Both the position numbers and the translations under genes were made by a program. 64,000 nucleotides of DNA, taken from assembly GCF_000689395.1 (NCBI RefSeq), contig NZ_HG966617.1, forward strand, positions 1,239,274 through 1,303,273. Direction: 5' to 3'. The notes beneath the pieces are model-generated. The model was given only the letters and a program-made list of their open reading frames with translations. It was not told where the DNA came from and made no database searches. The stretch comes from Candidatus Phaeomarinobacter ectocarpi. Lineage in GTDB: Bacteria > Pseudomonadota > Alphaproteobacteria > CGMCC-115125. Position 1 is the stretch's first letter. Each line of letters begins with the position of its first letter. Positions 5,352-35,585 of this stretch are shown here, piece by piece.

Positions 5352-6677
5352 ATGACCGAGATTGCTGAACAGACCGACTGGACCAAAGCGGACAAGGCGT
5401 CGGGCAGGTCGACAATGCCGTTCTCGGCATTTGAGTGGTTCCTTGCAGGGCGTTATTTGCGCGCGCGCCGTAAAGAAGGCTTCATCTCCGTTATCGCGCT
5501 GATCTCATTCATTGGCATCATGCTGGGCGTTGCCACGCTGATCATCGTCATGGCGGTGATGAATGGTTTCCGTACGGAACTTATCGGGCGCATTCTGGGT
5601 CTGAACGGCCACATGATGGTGCAGTCAGCAACGGGCACTTTCATCAACTATGAGGCAGCCGCCGCACGCATCCGCGAAGTAGACGGCGTGGTGCGGGTGA
5701 CACCTCTTGTCGAGGGGCAGGTCATGGCATCTGCCCGCCAGACAGCATCCGGTGCTCTCGTGCGTGGAATGTCGACCGAGAATTTGGCCAACTTTGATAT
5801 CATCGCTGATGGCATCGAAGGGGGCTCGCTGGACACCTACCGCAATCTTGAAGCAGACGGCCAAAGCCCGTTGCTGTTGGGCGCGCGACTTGCTCAGGCG
5901 CTTGGCGTTGGTGTGGGTGACAAGATCACGCTGCTATCACCGCGAGGCGCATCGACCCCCTTTGGAACAACGCCGCGTGTAAAAGCCTACATTGTTGCCG
6001 CGACGTTCCAGATCGGAATGTCTGAGTATGACTCAAGCTTCATTTTTATGCCGCTGAGTGAAGCGCAAGCCTTCTTCCGCCAGAACGGTTCCGTGTCCGG
6101 CATCGAGGTCATGATCGAGAAACCGGATCGAGTGAAAGACTTTACGCCGTCGATCAAGGCCGCTGCCGGAGACATTGCGAACGTCTATGACTGGCAGCAA
6201 ATGAATGGCACGTTCTTCAATGCCCTGCAGATCGAGCGCAACGTGATGTTCATCATTCTGACGCTGATCCTCCTCGTCGCAGCGCTCAACATCATTTCGG
6301 GTCTGTTCATGCTGGTGAAGGACAAGGGGCCGGACATTGCGATCCTCCGCAGCATGGGTGCGACGCGCGGCGCCATGATGCGTGTCTTTCTGATTGTCGG
6401 GGCGGCCATCGGCGTATTGGGAACGATTGCAGGTTTCATCATCGGCGTTCTGTTTTGCGAAAACATCGAAGCCATTCGTCAGGCGTTGATCTTCCTGACT
6501 GGCGCCCAATTGTTTGATCCTGCCATTTACTTCCTCAATGAGCTGCCGGCCGAAATGGAAATGAGCGAGGTCATTTCCGTTGTGGTGATGTCACTTGTTC
6601 TCTCCTTGCTCGCGACGATCTATCCAAGCTGGCGCGCCGCCCGCCTCGATCCGGTAGAGGCACTGCGATATGAGTAA
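5352..6677 (+). CDS. lolC: Lipoprotein-releasing ABC transporter permease (LolC/LolE type)
   Basis: This inner-membrane permease extracts mature outer-membrane lipoproteins in an ATP-dependent way for transfer to LolA. The 441 residues show the MacB/LolCE layout: one N-terminal transmembrane helix (about 43-72), a large periplasmic domain (about 75-290), then three helices (about 298-322, 341-367 and 403-427) ending in the conserved [18 protein letters not shown] segment. Only one such permease gene is present, so a homodimeric LolF-like arrangement with LolD is likely. It overlaps lolD by 8 bases. An alternative start at codon 22 (MPFSAFEWF) is possible. Confidence 0.93.
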
Positions 6678-7374
6678 GGCCGCACTGGAACTGCAGGGTG
6701 TTGAACGGACATTCATGCAGGGTGAGGATGAACTGCGGATTTTCCGCGGAGCCAATCTGTCTGTTCAACCTGGCGAATTGGTTGCCCTTGTTGGCCCTTC
6801 CGGCGCGGGCAAGTCCTCGTTGCTGCATATAGCAGGACTGATGGAACAGCCTGATGCAGGCGAGGTCGAAATTGGCGGCATTCCGTGCATGGGTCTATCG
6901 GATTCCGAGAAGACGCGCGTGCGCCGAACCGAGGTCGGCTTCGTCTATCAGGCGCATCATCTGCTTGCCGAGTTCTCGGCGACCGAGAATGTCGTCCTGC
7001 CGCAGCTCATTGCGGGCGTGAAACGCAAGGAAGCCGTTGCTGTCGCTGAACGCCTGCTAGGCCGGCTTGGCCTCGAAGAACGCCTGGAGCACCGGCCTGC
7101 GCAGCTGTCTGGCGGTGAACAGCAACGGGTGGCCATTGCCCGAGCGCTGGCCAATCGGCCCCGGCTTTTGCTGGCGGATGAACCAACAGGCAATCTTGAT
7201 CCAAAGACCTCACGTGGTGTGTTTAACGAGTTCGTCCAATTGACCCGCGGTGAAGGTGTTGCAGCACTCGTTGCCACTCACAACCTCGACCTGGCCCGTG
7301 AGATGGACCGGGTGGTCCTTCTGCATGAAGGCCTGCTGGTTGACGGCGCTGATATTGCCGGCAACCAGCTCTGA
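6670..7374 (+). CDS. lolD: Lipoprotein-releasing ABC transporter ATP-binding protein LolD
   Basis: This is the cytosolic ATPase that drives the LolC/E-type permease. The 234-residue protein has Walker [10 protein letters not shown] (42-50), the Q-loop near Gln94, the signature LSGGEQQR (146-153), Walker B LLLADEP (166-172) and a switch His in ATHNLD. Its ATG lies inside the end of the permease gene (8-base overlap), consistent with translational coupling. Nothing terminator-like with a T-run is visible directly downstream. Confidence 0.96.
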
Positions 7375-7462: not shown

Positions 7463-7477
7463 GAACAAAATGGGTAC
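7463..7477 (+). promoter_or_regulatory. Degenerate second SOS-box-like repeat
   Basis: GAAC-AAAATGG-GTAC matches GAAC-N7-GAAC at seven of eight fixed bases and lies 25 bases upstream of the perfect box at 7488. It could be an auxiliary LexA site; on its own it would not be convincing. Confidence 0.35.
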
Positions 7478-7507
7478 TTGACCAAAAGAACAAAAAGAGA
7501 ACATGAT
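7478..7507 (+). promoter_or_regulatory. Predicted SOS (LexA-controlled) promoter of the 32-codon ORF
   Basis: A perfect alphaproteobacterial SOS box, GAAC-AAAAAGA-GAAC, occupies 7488-7502. It sits between a -35-like TTGACC (7478-7483) and a -10-like CATGAT (7502-7507) spaced 18 bases apart, so bound LexA would block RNA polymerase directly. The box type GAAC-N7-GAAC (reverse complement GTTC-N7-GTTC) is the known LexA target in Alphaproteobacteria. The lexA promoter in this window has the same arrangement. The predicted start site is about 30 bases upstream of the small ORF. Confidence 0.7.
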
Positions 7508-7542
7508 GTCTTCAGATTGAACGTCACAGCTGGAGGCTGGTT

Positions 7543-7641
7543 ATGTCTGAATGGGTCAAAGATACTGCTGCTCTTTTCGTTCTCGGTGCTGTCATGTGGA
7601 GTGGCTTTGCGCTGACCGCCGCCGCGCAGGCTGCCGGGTAA
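7543..7641 (+). CDS. 32-residue small membrane protein, probably SOS-induced
   Basis: This short ORF is preceded by GGAGG at 7532-7536, 6 bases before the ATG, an excellent ribosome binding site. The product starts MSEWVKDTA, has one hydrophobic helix (about 9-28, with Trp19) and ends in AAAQAAG. It has only two acidic residues and one lysine, all near the N-terminus. A single-pass inner-membrane peptide, or a very short secreted one, is likely. Its promoter holds a perfect LexA box, so induction on DNA damage is inferred. Size, topology and regulation resemble SidA, the 29-residue SOS division inhibitor of Caulobacter, though I claim no sequence homology. dnaE begins 87 bases downstream. Confidence 0.65.
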   Translation: MSEWVKDTAALFVLGAVMWSGFALTAAAQAAG

Positions 7642-7728
7642 TCCACAACCAACTGCGTCAGGCGACTTTTCTGGGGATAACTGAAACCCCGGTAACCGGG
7701 CCGGATCACTTGGCGGTACACTTTGGCC

Positions 7729-10700
7729 ATGAGTGACGAATCGAGCCTAGGCGCAACGCCGGACGAGATCAGGGAATTCAAAGATCCTGTCTTCGTCCAT
7801 CTGAGACTTCATACGGCTTATTCCCTTCTGGAAGGTGCCGTGCGGGTGCCGGATTTGCCCGGTCGTTGTCAGTCAATGGATATGCCAGCGGTGGCCATTA
7901 CCGATACCGGCAATCTGTTTGGCGCTCTTGAATTTTCTGAAAAACTCTCTGGTGCAGGCGTCCAGCCCATAATTGGGTGTACCCTCGCATTGGACCTAGA
8001 GGTTGAGCCTGTGAGAGGCGGAGGTGTCCGTCCTCCCGACCCAACAATCGCGCTCCTTGCAAAGGACGAAGTCGGTTACCTCAATTTGATGGCCCTTACC
8101 TCAGAGGCCTATCTGGGAACCGACGGCACCGAGCAGCCGCACATCTCACTTGAAGAGTTGGCCGGCCATGCCGAAGGGCTTATCTGTCTCACCGGTGGAC
8201 CGAATGGCCCGATAAATCGCCTCATCGTTTCCGGGCAATCAGACCCGGCAACAAAGCTTGCGCAGACACTGGCCAAGTCGTTTCCCCAGCGGCTCTATGT
8301 TGAGCTCCAGCGGCACGGTATGGCTGAGGAGGCCGCGGCTGAGCCCCTGCTTCTGGATATTGCCTATGACCAGAATTTGCCTCTGGTTGCCACCAACGAA
8401 GTCTTCTTCTTTGAAGCTGATGATTACGAAGCCCACGATGCACTTTTGTGTGTCGCAGACGGCGCTTATGTGATGCAGGAAGACCGCCGTCGTATGACGC
8501 CGGATCACCGGTTCAAGTCAGGCGCGGAAATGGCGGCGCTTTTTGCCGATCTGCCTGAAGCAATCGCATCAACGGTCGAGATCGCCCAGCGGTGTGCGTA
8601 TCGCCCTCGCATCATTGATCCAATCCTTCCACGATTTGAAGGGTTGGACGGCGTCGAAGGTGAATCAGCCGAGCTCAAACGTCAGGCTGAGGAGGGGTTG
8701 CGCGCCCGGCTAGAGGCACTGGGAACCTTCGCGCCGGAGGAAGACTACTGGAAGCGGCTTGAGTTTGAGCTCAGCGTTATCCAGAATATGGGATTCCCCG
8801 GCTATTTTCTGATCGTTGCCGACTTTATCAAGTGGGCAAAGCAGCATGACATCCCGGTTGGCCCGGGCCGCGGTTCCGGTGCGGGGTCAGTGGTCGCCTG
8901 GGCACTCACCATCACAGACCTTGACCCGTTGCGGTTTGGTCTGCTGTTCGAACGGTTCTTGAACCCCGAACGCATATCAATGCCCGACTTTGATATCGAT
9001 TTCTGCCAGGACCGTCGCGATGAAGTGATCTCCTATGTACAGGAGAAATACGGGCGCGATCGCGTAGCCCAGATCATCACATTCGGTAAGTTGCAGGCCC
9101 GTGCTGTGTTACGTGACGTTGGGCGCGTCTTGCAGATGCCCTACGGCCAGGTTGACCGCCTGTGCAAGCTCGTGCCGAATAATCCTGCGAATCCGGTGAC
9201 CCTCGGAGAAGCCATTAAGGGCGAACCAAAGCTGCAGGAAGCGCGGCGGTCTGAGGAAATTGTCGACCGGCTGATCAGCATGTCTTTGAAGCTGGAAGGT
9301 CTGTACCGCCACGCGTCCACCCACGCAGCCGGCGTGGTGATTGGCGACCGTCCGCTGCAGGAGCTGGTGCCTCTCTATCGCGATCCGCGTTCAGACATGC
9401 CGGTGACTCAATTCAACATGAAATGGGTAGAGCCGGCGGGGCTCGTCAAATTTGACTTCCTTGGCCTGAAGACCCTCACCGTCATTGAGCGCGCGCTGAA
9501 GCTGCTGAAGAATCGCGGCGTTGACGTCAACATCGAGGCATTGCCGCTTGATGATGTCGGGACCTACGAGATGCTGTCGCGCGGTGAGACTGTGGGCGTG
9601 TTCCAGCTTGAAAGTTCAGGCATGCGCGACATCCTGCGCAAAATGAAGCCTGACAGGTTTGAGGACATCATTGCCCTTGTGGCGCTCTATCGTCCCGGCC
9701 CGATGGACAACATCCCCAAGTACCTCGCTGTGAAGAAGGGCGATGAAGAACCAGACTATCTGCATCCAAGTCTTGAGCCGATCCTGACCGAAACCTACGG
9801 CATCATGATCTATCAGGAGCAGGTGATGCAGATTGCCCAGGTCCTGTCCGGCTATTCACTCGGTGACGCTGATTTGTTGCGCCGTGCCATGGGCAAGAAG
9901 ATCCAGGCCGAAATGGACAAGCAGAAGGTTCGCTTTGTTGAGGGCGCGGAAGCAAACAAGGTGGATGGCAAGCAGGCTGCTGGAATTTTTGAGCAGGTTA
10001 ACAAGTTCGCTGGATACGGCTTCAACAAGAGTCATGCAGCTGCCTATGCACTGGTCGCGTATCAAACCGCCTGGCTCAAGGCCAACTATCCTGTGGAGTT
10101 CCTGGCGGCATCAATGAACCTTGATATGGGGAATACGGACAAACTCAATACGTTCCGGCGCGAGGCGCAGCGATTGGAGATTGAGGTCTACACGCCAAAC
10201 ATAAATCAGTCCGGCGCAGAATTTACGGTGATTGACGGCGCCATTTCTTATGCACTTGCGGCAGTTCGCAATGTAGGAAAGCAGGCCATGCATCACCTGG
10301 CGGAGGAGCGAAAATCGAACGGCCCGTTCAAATCAGTTGCAGACTTTGCCTCTCGCGTATCGCCGAAACATGTGAACAAACGCGCTATTGAAAATCTCGC
10401 ATGCGCGGGCGCATTCGACGGTGTGGACAAAAATCGCGCACGACTGCATGGGGCGGCCGATAAGGTCATGGCTGAGATGAGCCGTGCTGACGCAGAGCGC
10501 GAAAGTTCACAATCAAGTCTGTTTGGTGATGGGCCGGGTGTCGCCCCTGATCTGCGACTGGGAGACCAGCGCGATTGGATGCCCATGGAGCGGTTGCGTC
10601 ATGAAATGGAGGCCGTCGGCTTCTATTTGTCGGGCCACCCGCTGGACGATTATCGGGATGCCTTGCGGCGCGCCCGCGTCAAGCCCTATGCGGAATTTGT

Positions 10701-11205
10701 GCAGGCTATTGCATCCGGGGGGCCACGTGTCGGCAAACTCGCCGGCACTGTGGCCTACAAGCAGGAGCGTCGCTCCAAGAGCGGCAACAGTTTTGCATTT
10801 ATGGGTCTGTCAGACGGCACAGGCGAATTTGAGGCGGTGATATTTTCAGATGCACTGGCGATGTCACGTGACTTTCTTGAACCCAACATGTCTGTGGTCG
10901 TGGGGGTCGAGGCAGAGGTGGACGGAGATGATGTTCGGCTCAAGATTGCGACTGTTCAGCCAGTGGACAAGGTAGCGTCAGAGACCTCCAACGGCTTGCG
11001 CCTGTTTGTGGATGACCCAAAAGCCCTCACCAGCATTCAGGCTTGTTTGCCACCAAAGGGCAGGGGGCAGTTAAGTCTCATCGTCGATGCCGAAGGCGGT
11101 AAGAAGGAAGTGGAAATCACTTTGCCCGGGCGCTTTGAAGTAACCCCTCAGGCACGCGGTGCACTCAAGGCGATTGACGGCGTCGCGCACGTAGAGGATC
11201 TGTAA
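7729..11205 (+). CDS. dnaE: DNA polymerase III alpha subunit
   Basis: This is the replicative polymerase catalytic subunit, 1158 residues, the usual length for DnaE1. It shows an N-terminal PHP domain (VHLRLHTAYSLLEGA), the polymerase palm with GPGRGSGAGSVV and catalytic aspartates in PDFDID (419-424), a helix-hairpin-helix region, and a C-terminal OB fold (GKLAGTVAYKQERRSKSG). The ATG at 7729 is preferred to an in-frame TTG two codons earlier. An odd palindrome CCCGGTAACCGGG at 7688-7700 lies in its leader. It is 87 bases downstream of the SOS-type small ORF, so read-through from that promoter could raise dnaE during damage; this is inference. Confidence 0.97.
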   Translation: MSDESSLGATPDEIREFKDPVFVHLRLHTAYSLLEGAVRVPDLPGRCQSMDMPAVAITDTGNLFGALEFSEKLSGAGVQPIIGCTLALDLEVEPVRGGGVRPPDPTIALLAKDEVGYLNLMALTSEAYLGTDGTEQPHISLEELAGHAEGLICLTGGPNGPINRLIVSGQSDPATKLAQTLAKSFPQRLYVELQRHGMAEEAAAEPLLLDIAYDQNLPLVATNEVFFFEADDYEAHDALLCVADGAYVMQEDRRRMTPDHRFKSGAEMAALFADLPEAIASTVEIAQRCAYRPRIIDPILPRFEGLDGVEGESAELKRQAEEGLRARLEALGTFAPEEDYWKRLEFELSVIQNMGFPGYFLIVADFIKWAKQHDIPVGPGRGSGAGSVVAWALTITDLDPLRFGLLFERFLNPERISMPDFDIDFCQDRRDEVISYVQEKYGRDRVAQIITFGKLQARAVLRDVGRVLQMPYGQVDRLCKLVPNNPANPVTLGEAIKGEPKLQEARRSEEIVDRLISMSLKLEGLYRHASTHAAGVVIGDRPLQELVPLYRDPRSDMPVTQFNMKWVEPAGLVKFDFLGLKTLTVIERALKLLKNRGVDVNIEALPLDDVGTYEMLSRGETVGVFQLESSGMRDILRKMKPDRFEDIIALVALYRPGPMDNIPKYLAVKKGDEEPDYLHPSLEPILTETYGIMIYQEQVMQIAQVLSGYSLGDADLLRRAMGKKIQAEMDKQKVRFVEGAEANKVDGKQAAGIFEQVNKFAGYGFNKSHAAAYALVAYQTAWLKANYPVEFLAASMNLDMGNTDKLNTFRREAQRLEIEVYTPNINQSGAEFTVIDGAISYALAAVRNVGKQAMHHLAEERKSNGPFKSVADFASRVSPKHVNKRAIENLACAGAFDGVDKNRARLHGAADKVMAEMSRADAERESSQSSLFGDGPGVAPDLRLGDQRDWMPMERLRHEMEAVGFYLSGHPLDDYRDALRRARVKPYAEFVQAIASGGPRVGKLAGTVAYKQERRSKSGNSFAFMGLSDGTGEFEAVIFSDALAMSRDFLEPNMSVVVGVEAEVDGDDVRLKIATVQPVDKVASETSNGLRLFVDDPKALTSIQACLPPKGRGQLSLIVDAEGGKKEVEITLPGRFEVTPQARGALKAIDGVAHVEDL

Positions 11206-34669: not shown

Positions 34670-35383
34670 CTAGTATCTGCGCATCAGTCCAACGAGTTTG
34701 CCCTGAACCTTTACCCGGTCTGATGGAAAAATCCGCGTCTCATAGGCCGGATTGGCGGCCTCAAGAGCAATGGTATCACCCTTGCGGCGCAGGCGTTTGA
34801 GCGTTGCTTCGTGCTGATCAACCAGCGCCACGACAATTTCACCCGAGCTGGCGGTATCAGCGCGCTGAATGACAACAATGTCGCCATCAAAAATACCTGC
34901 ATCAATCATCGAGTCACCCTTGACCTCCAAAGCATAGTGCTCGCCGGAGCCCAGCAAGCTTGCAGGAACACCTACATGGTTGGAGTCGTCCTGAAGCGCT
35001 TCGATTGGCGTACCAGCCGCAATTCGTCCAACAAGCGGAAGCGTCAGCGCATCTCCACCTTCTGGAACTGAATGGTGATTGTCTGGAAGGGGGGCTGGTT
35101 CAGACAGACTGCCTTGAATGACGCTCGGCGAGAAACCGCGCTTGGCAGGTGTTGATTGTGGGGCAGCTGACTCAGGAAGTTTTACAACCTCCAGGGCGCG
35201 GGCTCGATGAGGCATCCGCCGGATGAAGCCGCGTTCTTCTAGGGCCGTAATAAGGCGATGAATGCCCGATTTGGACCTTAGATCCAGCGCTTCTTTCATT
35301 TCATCAAAAGAAGGCGAAACACCTGTTTCGCGAATCCGCTCATGTATGAATGTCAAAAGCTCGTGCTGTTTCCGCGTCAGCAT
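34670..35383 (-). CDS. lexA: LexA repressor
   Basis: This is the SOS regulator that cleaves itself when activated by RecA. The 237-residue protein has an N-terminal winged helix-turn-helix ([19 protein letters not shown].., about 1-65), the Ala-Gly cleavage site in RIAAGTPI, the catalytic Ser in GDSMIDAG and Lys in HEATLKRL. The start MLTRKQ matches the family; a longer in-frame start at 35485 is unlikely. A predicted SOS promoter lies 174 bases upstream, which implies autoregulation with a long leader. Confidence 0.97.
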
Positions 35384-35556: not shown

Positions 35557-35585
35557 GTTCTATTTTGGTTCTCAATTTCCGTCAA
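35557..35585 (-). promoter_or_regulatory. Predicted SOS promoter of lexA
   Basis: On the minus strand, a -35-like TTGACG (35580-35585) and a -10-like TAGAAC (35557-35562) are 17 bases apart. A perfect SOS box, GTTC-TATTTTG-GTTC as read on the plus strand (35557-35571), overlaps the -10 and spacer. LexA bound here would repress its own gene. The predicted start lies about 165 bases before the lexA ATG. Confidence 0.75.

Follow-up and report, generated by a model that had tools for sequence, protein, structure and literature searches.

In the whole 64,000-nucleotide stretch of DNA analysed here (the window), the gap between lolD and dnaE holds a short gene of 32 codons preceded by a compact promoter region, whose elements are collected in the table. 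The components described in an earlier note, that is, a perfect GAAC-N7-GAAC box between TTGACC and CATGAT, a near-perfect second box 25 bases upstream and a GGAGG followed by a 32-codon open reading frame (ORF), were all found in place. The promoter has an 18-nt spacer and scores 9/12. A further perfect GAAC-N7-GAAC match lies inside dnaE (8950-8964) and is probably due to chance.

Features of the lolD-dnaE gap and of the lexA locus in the window
Feature	Position	Strand	Remarks
lolD, conserved upstream neighbour	6670..7374	+	
Imperfect second LexA-type box GAACAAAATGGGTAC	7463..7477	+	7/8 fixed bases matched
Sigma-70-type promoter TTGACC-18-CATGAT	7478..7507	+	-35 at 7478-7483, -10 at 7502-7507
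Perfect LexA box GAACAAAAAGAGAAC	7488..7502	+	between -35 and -10
Ribosome-binding site GGAGG	7532..7536	+	6 nt 5' of the start codon
sidA-like gene, 32 codons, MSEWVKDTAALFVLGAVMWSGFALTAAAQAAG	7543..7641	+	ATG at 7543, stop ends at 7641
dnaE, conserved downstream neighbour	7729..11205	+	inferred start ATG 7729; in-frame TTG at 7723
lexA, likely repressor of the box	34670..35383	-	TIGR00498 match (N-terminal part); inferred start MLTRK at 35383
LexA box GAACCAAAATAGAAC upstream of lexA	35557..35571	-	

Judged from its substitution pattern, the 32-codon ORF is a protein-coding gene. Between the genome of the window and that of a congener (G002), no residue of the protein differs, and the eight DNA differences are all silent and at codon position 3, a pattern reached in 0 of 20,000 random simulations. 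In a second relative (G001), 26 of the 32 residues are kept and 15 of 21 differences fall at third positions (simulation P = 5e-5), while the DNA flanking the ORF aligns poorly, with the exception of the promoter and its box. The earlier note had named loss of the reading frame among relatives as a refutation; the frame is conserved and the claim is not refuted. Regarding the protein, Pfam and NCBIfam searches with the ORF gave no match, and AlphaFold2, run on the single sequence, predicts one continuous helix spanning residues 3-31 (pLDDT 93), in agreement with the single hydrophobic helix previously proposed. With its 32 residues and one predicted transmembrane helix, the product has the size and topology of SidA (about 29 residues, single transmembrane helix).

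Perfect GAAC-N7-GAAC boxes are rare neither in the window (4 against 2.2 expected) nor in the genome (71, the reversed control pattern giving 89), and one perfect box alone therefore carries little weight; that the association of box and ORF exceeds chance is shown by their conservation among relatives. In both G001 and G002, the box likewise lies between -35 and -10, the equivalent promoter of G001 being TTGACA-18-CATTAT, and the near-box is kept in G002 as GAACAAAATAGGTAC, with none seen in G001. The same box is found in intergenic DNA before five repair loci of the genome, namely the ImuA-like gene at the dnaE2 locus, uvrD/pcrA, ssb, the gene of a YifB/ComM-type ATPase and a divergent ligase-associated helicase/exonuclease pair. 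The imuA assignment was made from position and sequence appearance, NCBIfam giving no match for the 114-residue piece. These boxed loci (L218, L225, L229, L230 and L234) outline the SOS regulon of the genome, and the window also contains lexA with a box of its own, some 28 kb away from the sidA-like gene. With lexA and five repair loci carrying the same box, the SOS control proposed earlier is supported at the level of sequence, and LexA very probably uses the box at 7488-7502 in this genome.

The earlier note had suggested a search of the lolD-dnaE intergenic regions of related genomes for a short ORF with a transmembrane helix and a box; in the DNA upstream of dnaE, the pair was found to be conserved. 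The sample comprised the DNA upstream of dnaE from 119 genomes outside Caulobacteraceae (74 families), and is biased toward genomes whose dnaE resembles that of the window. A forward box precedes dnaE in 26 of these 119 regions, from 11 families besides Caulobacteraceae, as compared with 1/119 for a composition-matched control pattern. All 26 boxed regions contain a one-helix ORF of 25-60 residues starting within 95 nt of the box, against a background of 7.6% for such ORFs in box-less regions. The remaining 93 regions have no forward box before dnaE, and the gene is thus patchy in the class or relocated in those genomes. Among 58 distinct homologs, 50 have a perfect box at most 150 nt 5' of the start, and a TTGAC element stands 5' of the box in most relatives. 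Boxed one-helix ORFs of families f42, f117, f112 and f71 (L139, L180-L182, L169, L186, L029 and L202) also precede dnaE but fit the SidA core poorly, and could be either strongly diverged SidA proteins or replacements.

Caulobacteraceae genomes were found through the solved Caulobacter beta clamp (5wce), an identity with which the named loci agree. In C. vibrioides DSM 9893 (L107, NZ_PJRR01000019.1), a 29-codon ORF with the box GAACATCTTGTGAAC stands before dnaE, and NCBIfam NF033228 identifies it as SidA with 72.4 bits against a cut-off of 35 bits; the gene of the window occupies this same position directly upstream of dnaE. Tandem boxes precede many Caulobacteraceae sidA genes as well. The locus tags of Caulobacter dnaE (CC1926; PMC1839093) and sidA (CCNA_02004; PMC11034885) fit this adjacency, provided that, as we infer, the two numbering schemes match. 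The likeness to SidA in size, topology and regulation put forward in the earlier note thus holds, down to the same slot and an own box in C. vibrioides.

The window protein and SidA align without gaps from Met1 along the core [KR]-[DE]-[ST]-x-A-L...W19, with K6/R6, D7/E7, T8/S8, A10, L11 and W19 in register, and W4 of the window protein is common to the Caulobacteraceae members beginning with MARWVRE. Identity to C. vibrioides SidA is 14%. NF033228, whose matches among 28 aligned members number 14, as many as there are Caulobacteraceae rows, gave no match to the protein of the window at any E up to 10 and so stays short of its 35-bit cut-off; a single-sequence protein search of relatives with the window protein returned the same genus only. 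A Caulobacteraceae-only profile gave 3.2 bits on the window protein, a score equalled by 6% of shuffles and no direct match, and homology therefore rests on intermediates. This profile matches G287 of family f10 (E = 5.6e-5) and G006 of family f4 (E = 0.008). Linking profiles were built from non-Caulobacteraceae members with the window's genus left out; they place the window ORF at the top of 1789 window segments (E = 1.5e-4 to 2.7e-3) and match Caulobacteraceae SidA with E down to 5.6e-8. With the profile of families f10, f4, f80 and f120, the window ORF ranks first of the 1789 segments at E = 1.5e-4 and Caulobacteraceae SidA is matched at E = 3.5e-6, the window score being reached by 0 of 20,000 layout-preserving shuffles; for three wider-family profiles, the real score is reached by 0, 6 or 8 of 20,000. 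The bridging sequences include MARWVREMLSL... in Caulobacteraceae, LALSSVVGVLW in f4 and WFKDIAALISV in f10. When run across the class, the family profile ranks dnaE-linked members first and adds two boxed members that were not in the model (G180 and G259), its weak matches (E > 0.005) being mostly parts of longer proteins without box, with the exception of G207. The window protein is thereby connected to the broad SidA family, and homology to SidA, distant as it is and not asserted in the earlier note, can be claimed from these sequence comparisons through intermediates.

In G207 (L260, 1501-1600), the homolog MQIWLKDTLALVSLFALTWMGMAWIAVLDLT comes after lolC/E-lolD and has GAAC-N7-GTAC behind TTGACA; an NtrY-like kinase gene follows, and dnaE lies on another contig without homolog. 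The G207 homolog is likely a member away from dnaE, and in this genome the sidA-like gene keeps company with lolD and not with dnaE.

Such a separation of homolog and dnaE on distinct contigs speaks against a leader peptide or upstream ORF controlling dnaE, by which the box would regulate the replicative polymerase. This reading, which draws on the ORF immediately preceding dnaE in the same orientation and on the lack of a visible forward intrinsic terminator between them, appears very improbable, since the distance between homolog and dnaE varies widely among relatives, the substitution pattern preserves the peptide and Caulobacter SidA works as a protein. It is somewhat less improbable, although still unlikely, that the gene encodes an SOS-induced small membrane protein not homologous to SidA, either an independent inhibitor or one with another envelope target, next to dnaE by accident. 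The resemblance to Caulobacteraceae SidA, when compared directly, is weak, families f42, f117 and f112 include members aligning poorly with the SidA core, and, as a hydrophobic helix of 30 residues holds little information, convergent sequence at a fixed locus is conceivable; against this stand the same locus and promoter geometry, the gapless alignment from residue 1 and the intermediates linking both ends. As for a coincidental ORF following a coincidental box, single boxes are indeed common in this genome, but the all-synonymous divergence, the conservation across families and the presence of an ORF in 26/26 boxed regions refute this explanation, to which we give hardly any credence.

The gene is best read as a sidA ortholog outside the described SidA clade. 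With high confidence, drawn from sequence and from analogy, we regard it as a positional ortholog, although a diverged one, of sidA of Caulobacter that would do the same job, inhibiting division by way of FtsW once induced by the SOS response. SidA of Caulobacter has 29 residues and resides in the inner membrane, where it binds FtsW and holds FtsW/I/N in an inactive state (PMC4211646), and it is from Caulobacter that we infer induction, membrane topology, FtsW target and division arrest. Without damage, LexA bound to the perfect box would sit over the spacer that separates -35 from -10 and block transcription, possibly helped by the weaker box upstream. Upon DNA damage, active RecA would trigger LexA self-cleavage and the gene would be transcribed. 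Its 32-residue product would insert as a single transmembrane helix, with the N-terminus bearing K6/D7 probably cytoplasmic, and would hold the FtsW/FtsI/FtsN division complex inactive, so that septation waits for finished repair. FtsW is present in this genome. SulA (PF03846) was not found in it, and among 14 control genomes only E. coli has SulA.

With Caulobacter SidA, the window gene has in common its place before dnaE, a length of about 30 residues, one transmembrane helix, the GAAC-N7-GAAC promoter box and the core [KR][DE]xxAL...W; it differs by coming from another order, by being three residues longer and by having the -35 TTGAC directly before the box. The Gram-positive YneA, SosA, ChiZ and DivS are likewise SOS-induced small membrane division inhibitors, and YneA also binds FtsW (PMC13396833), but they are unrelated proteins encoded at other loci, several of them with further domains. 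DidA of Caulobacter is similarly a small damage-induced membrane inhibitor of FtsW/I/N, whereas it has 71 residues, is SOS-independent (DriD) and binds FtsN (PMC4211646). SulA is an SOS-induced division inhibitor too, yet it inhibits FtsZ and is absent from this genome.

To our knowledge, no SOS division inhibitor is known in most Alphaproteobacteria. Taken more broadly, sidA is probably an old alphaproteobacterial checkpoint gene, which at least 12 families keep between lolD and dnaE under the control of LexA and which would have escaped notice, its ORF being too small and too divergent to be picked up by gene callers or by the curated SidA model. If this holds true, an FtsW-directed SOS checkpoint would be a common alphaproteobacterial counterpart of SulA. 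Its conserved and predictable locus would offer a direct route to the checkpoint protein in many genomes, and the way in which so small a helix, of 30 residues, varies in nature alongside its FtsW partner would provide material to map how septal wall synthesis is arrested.
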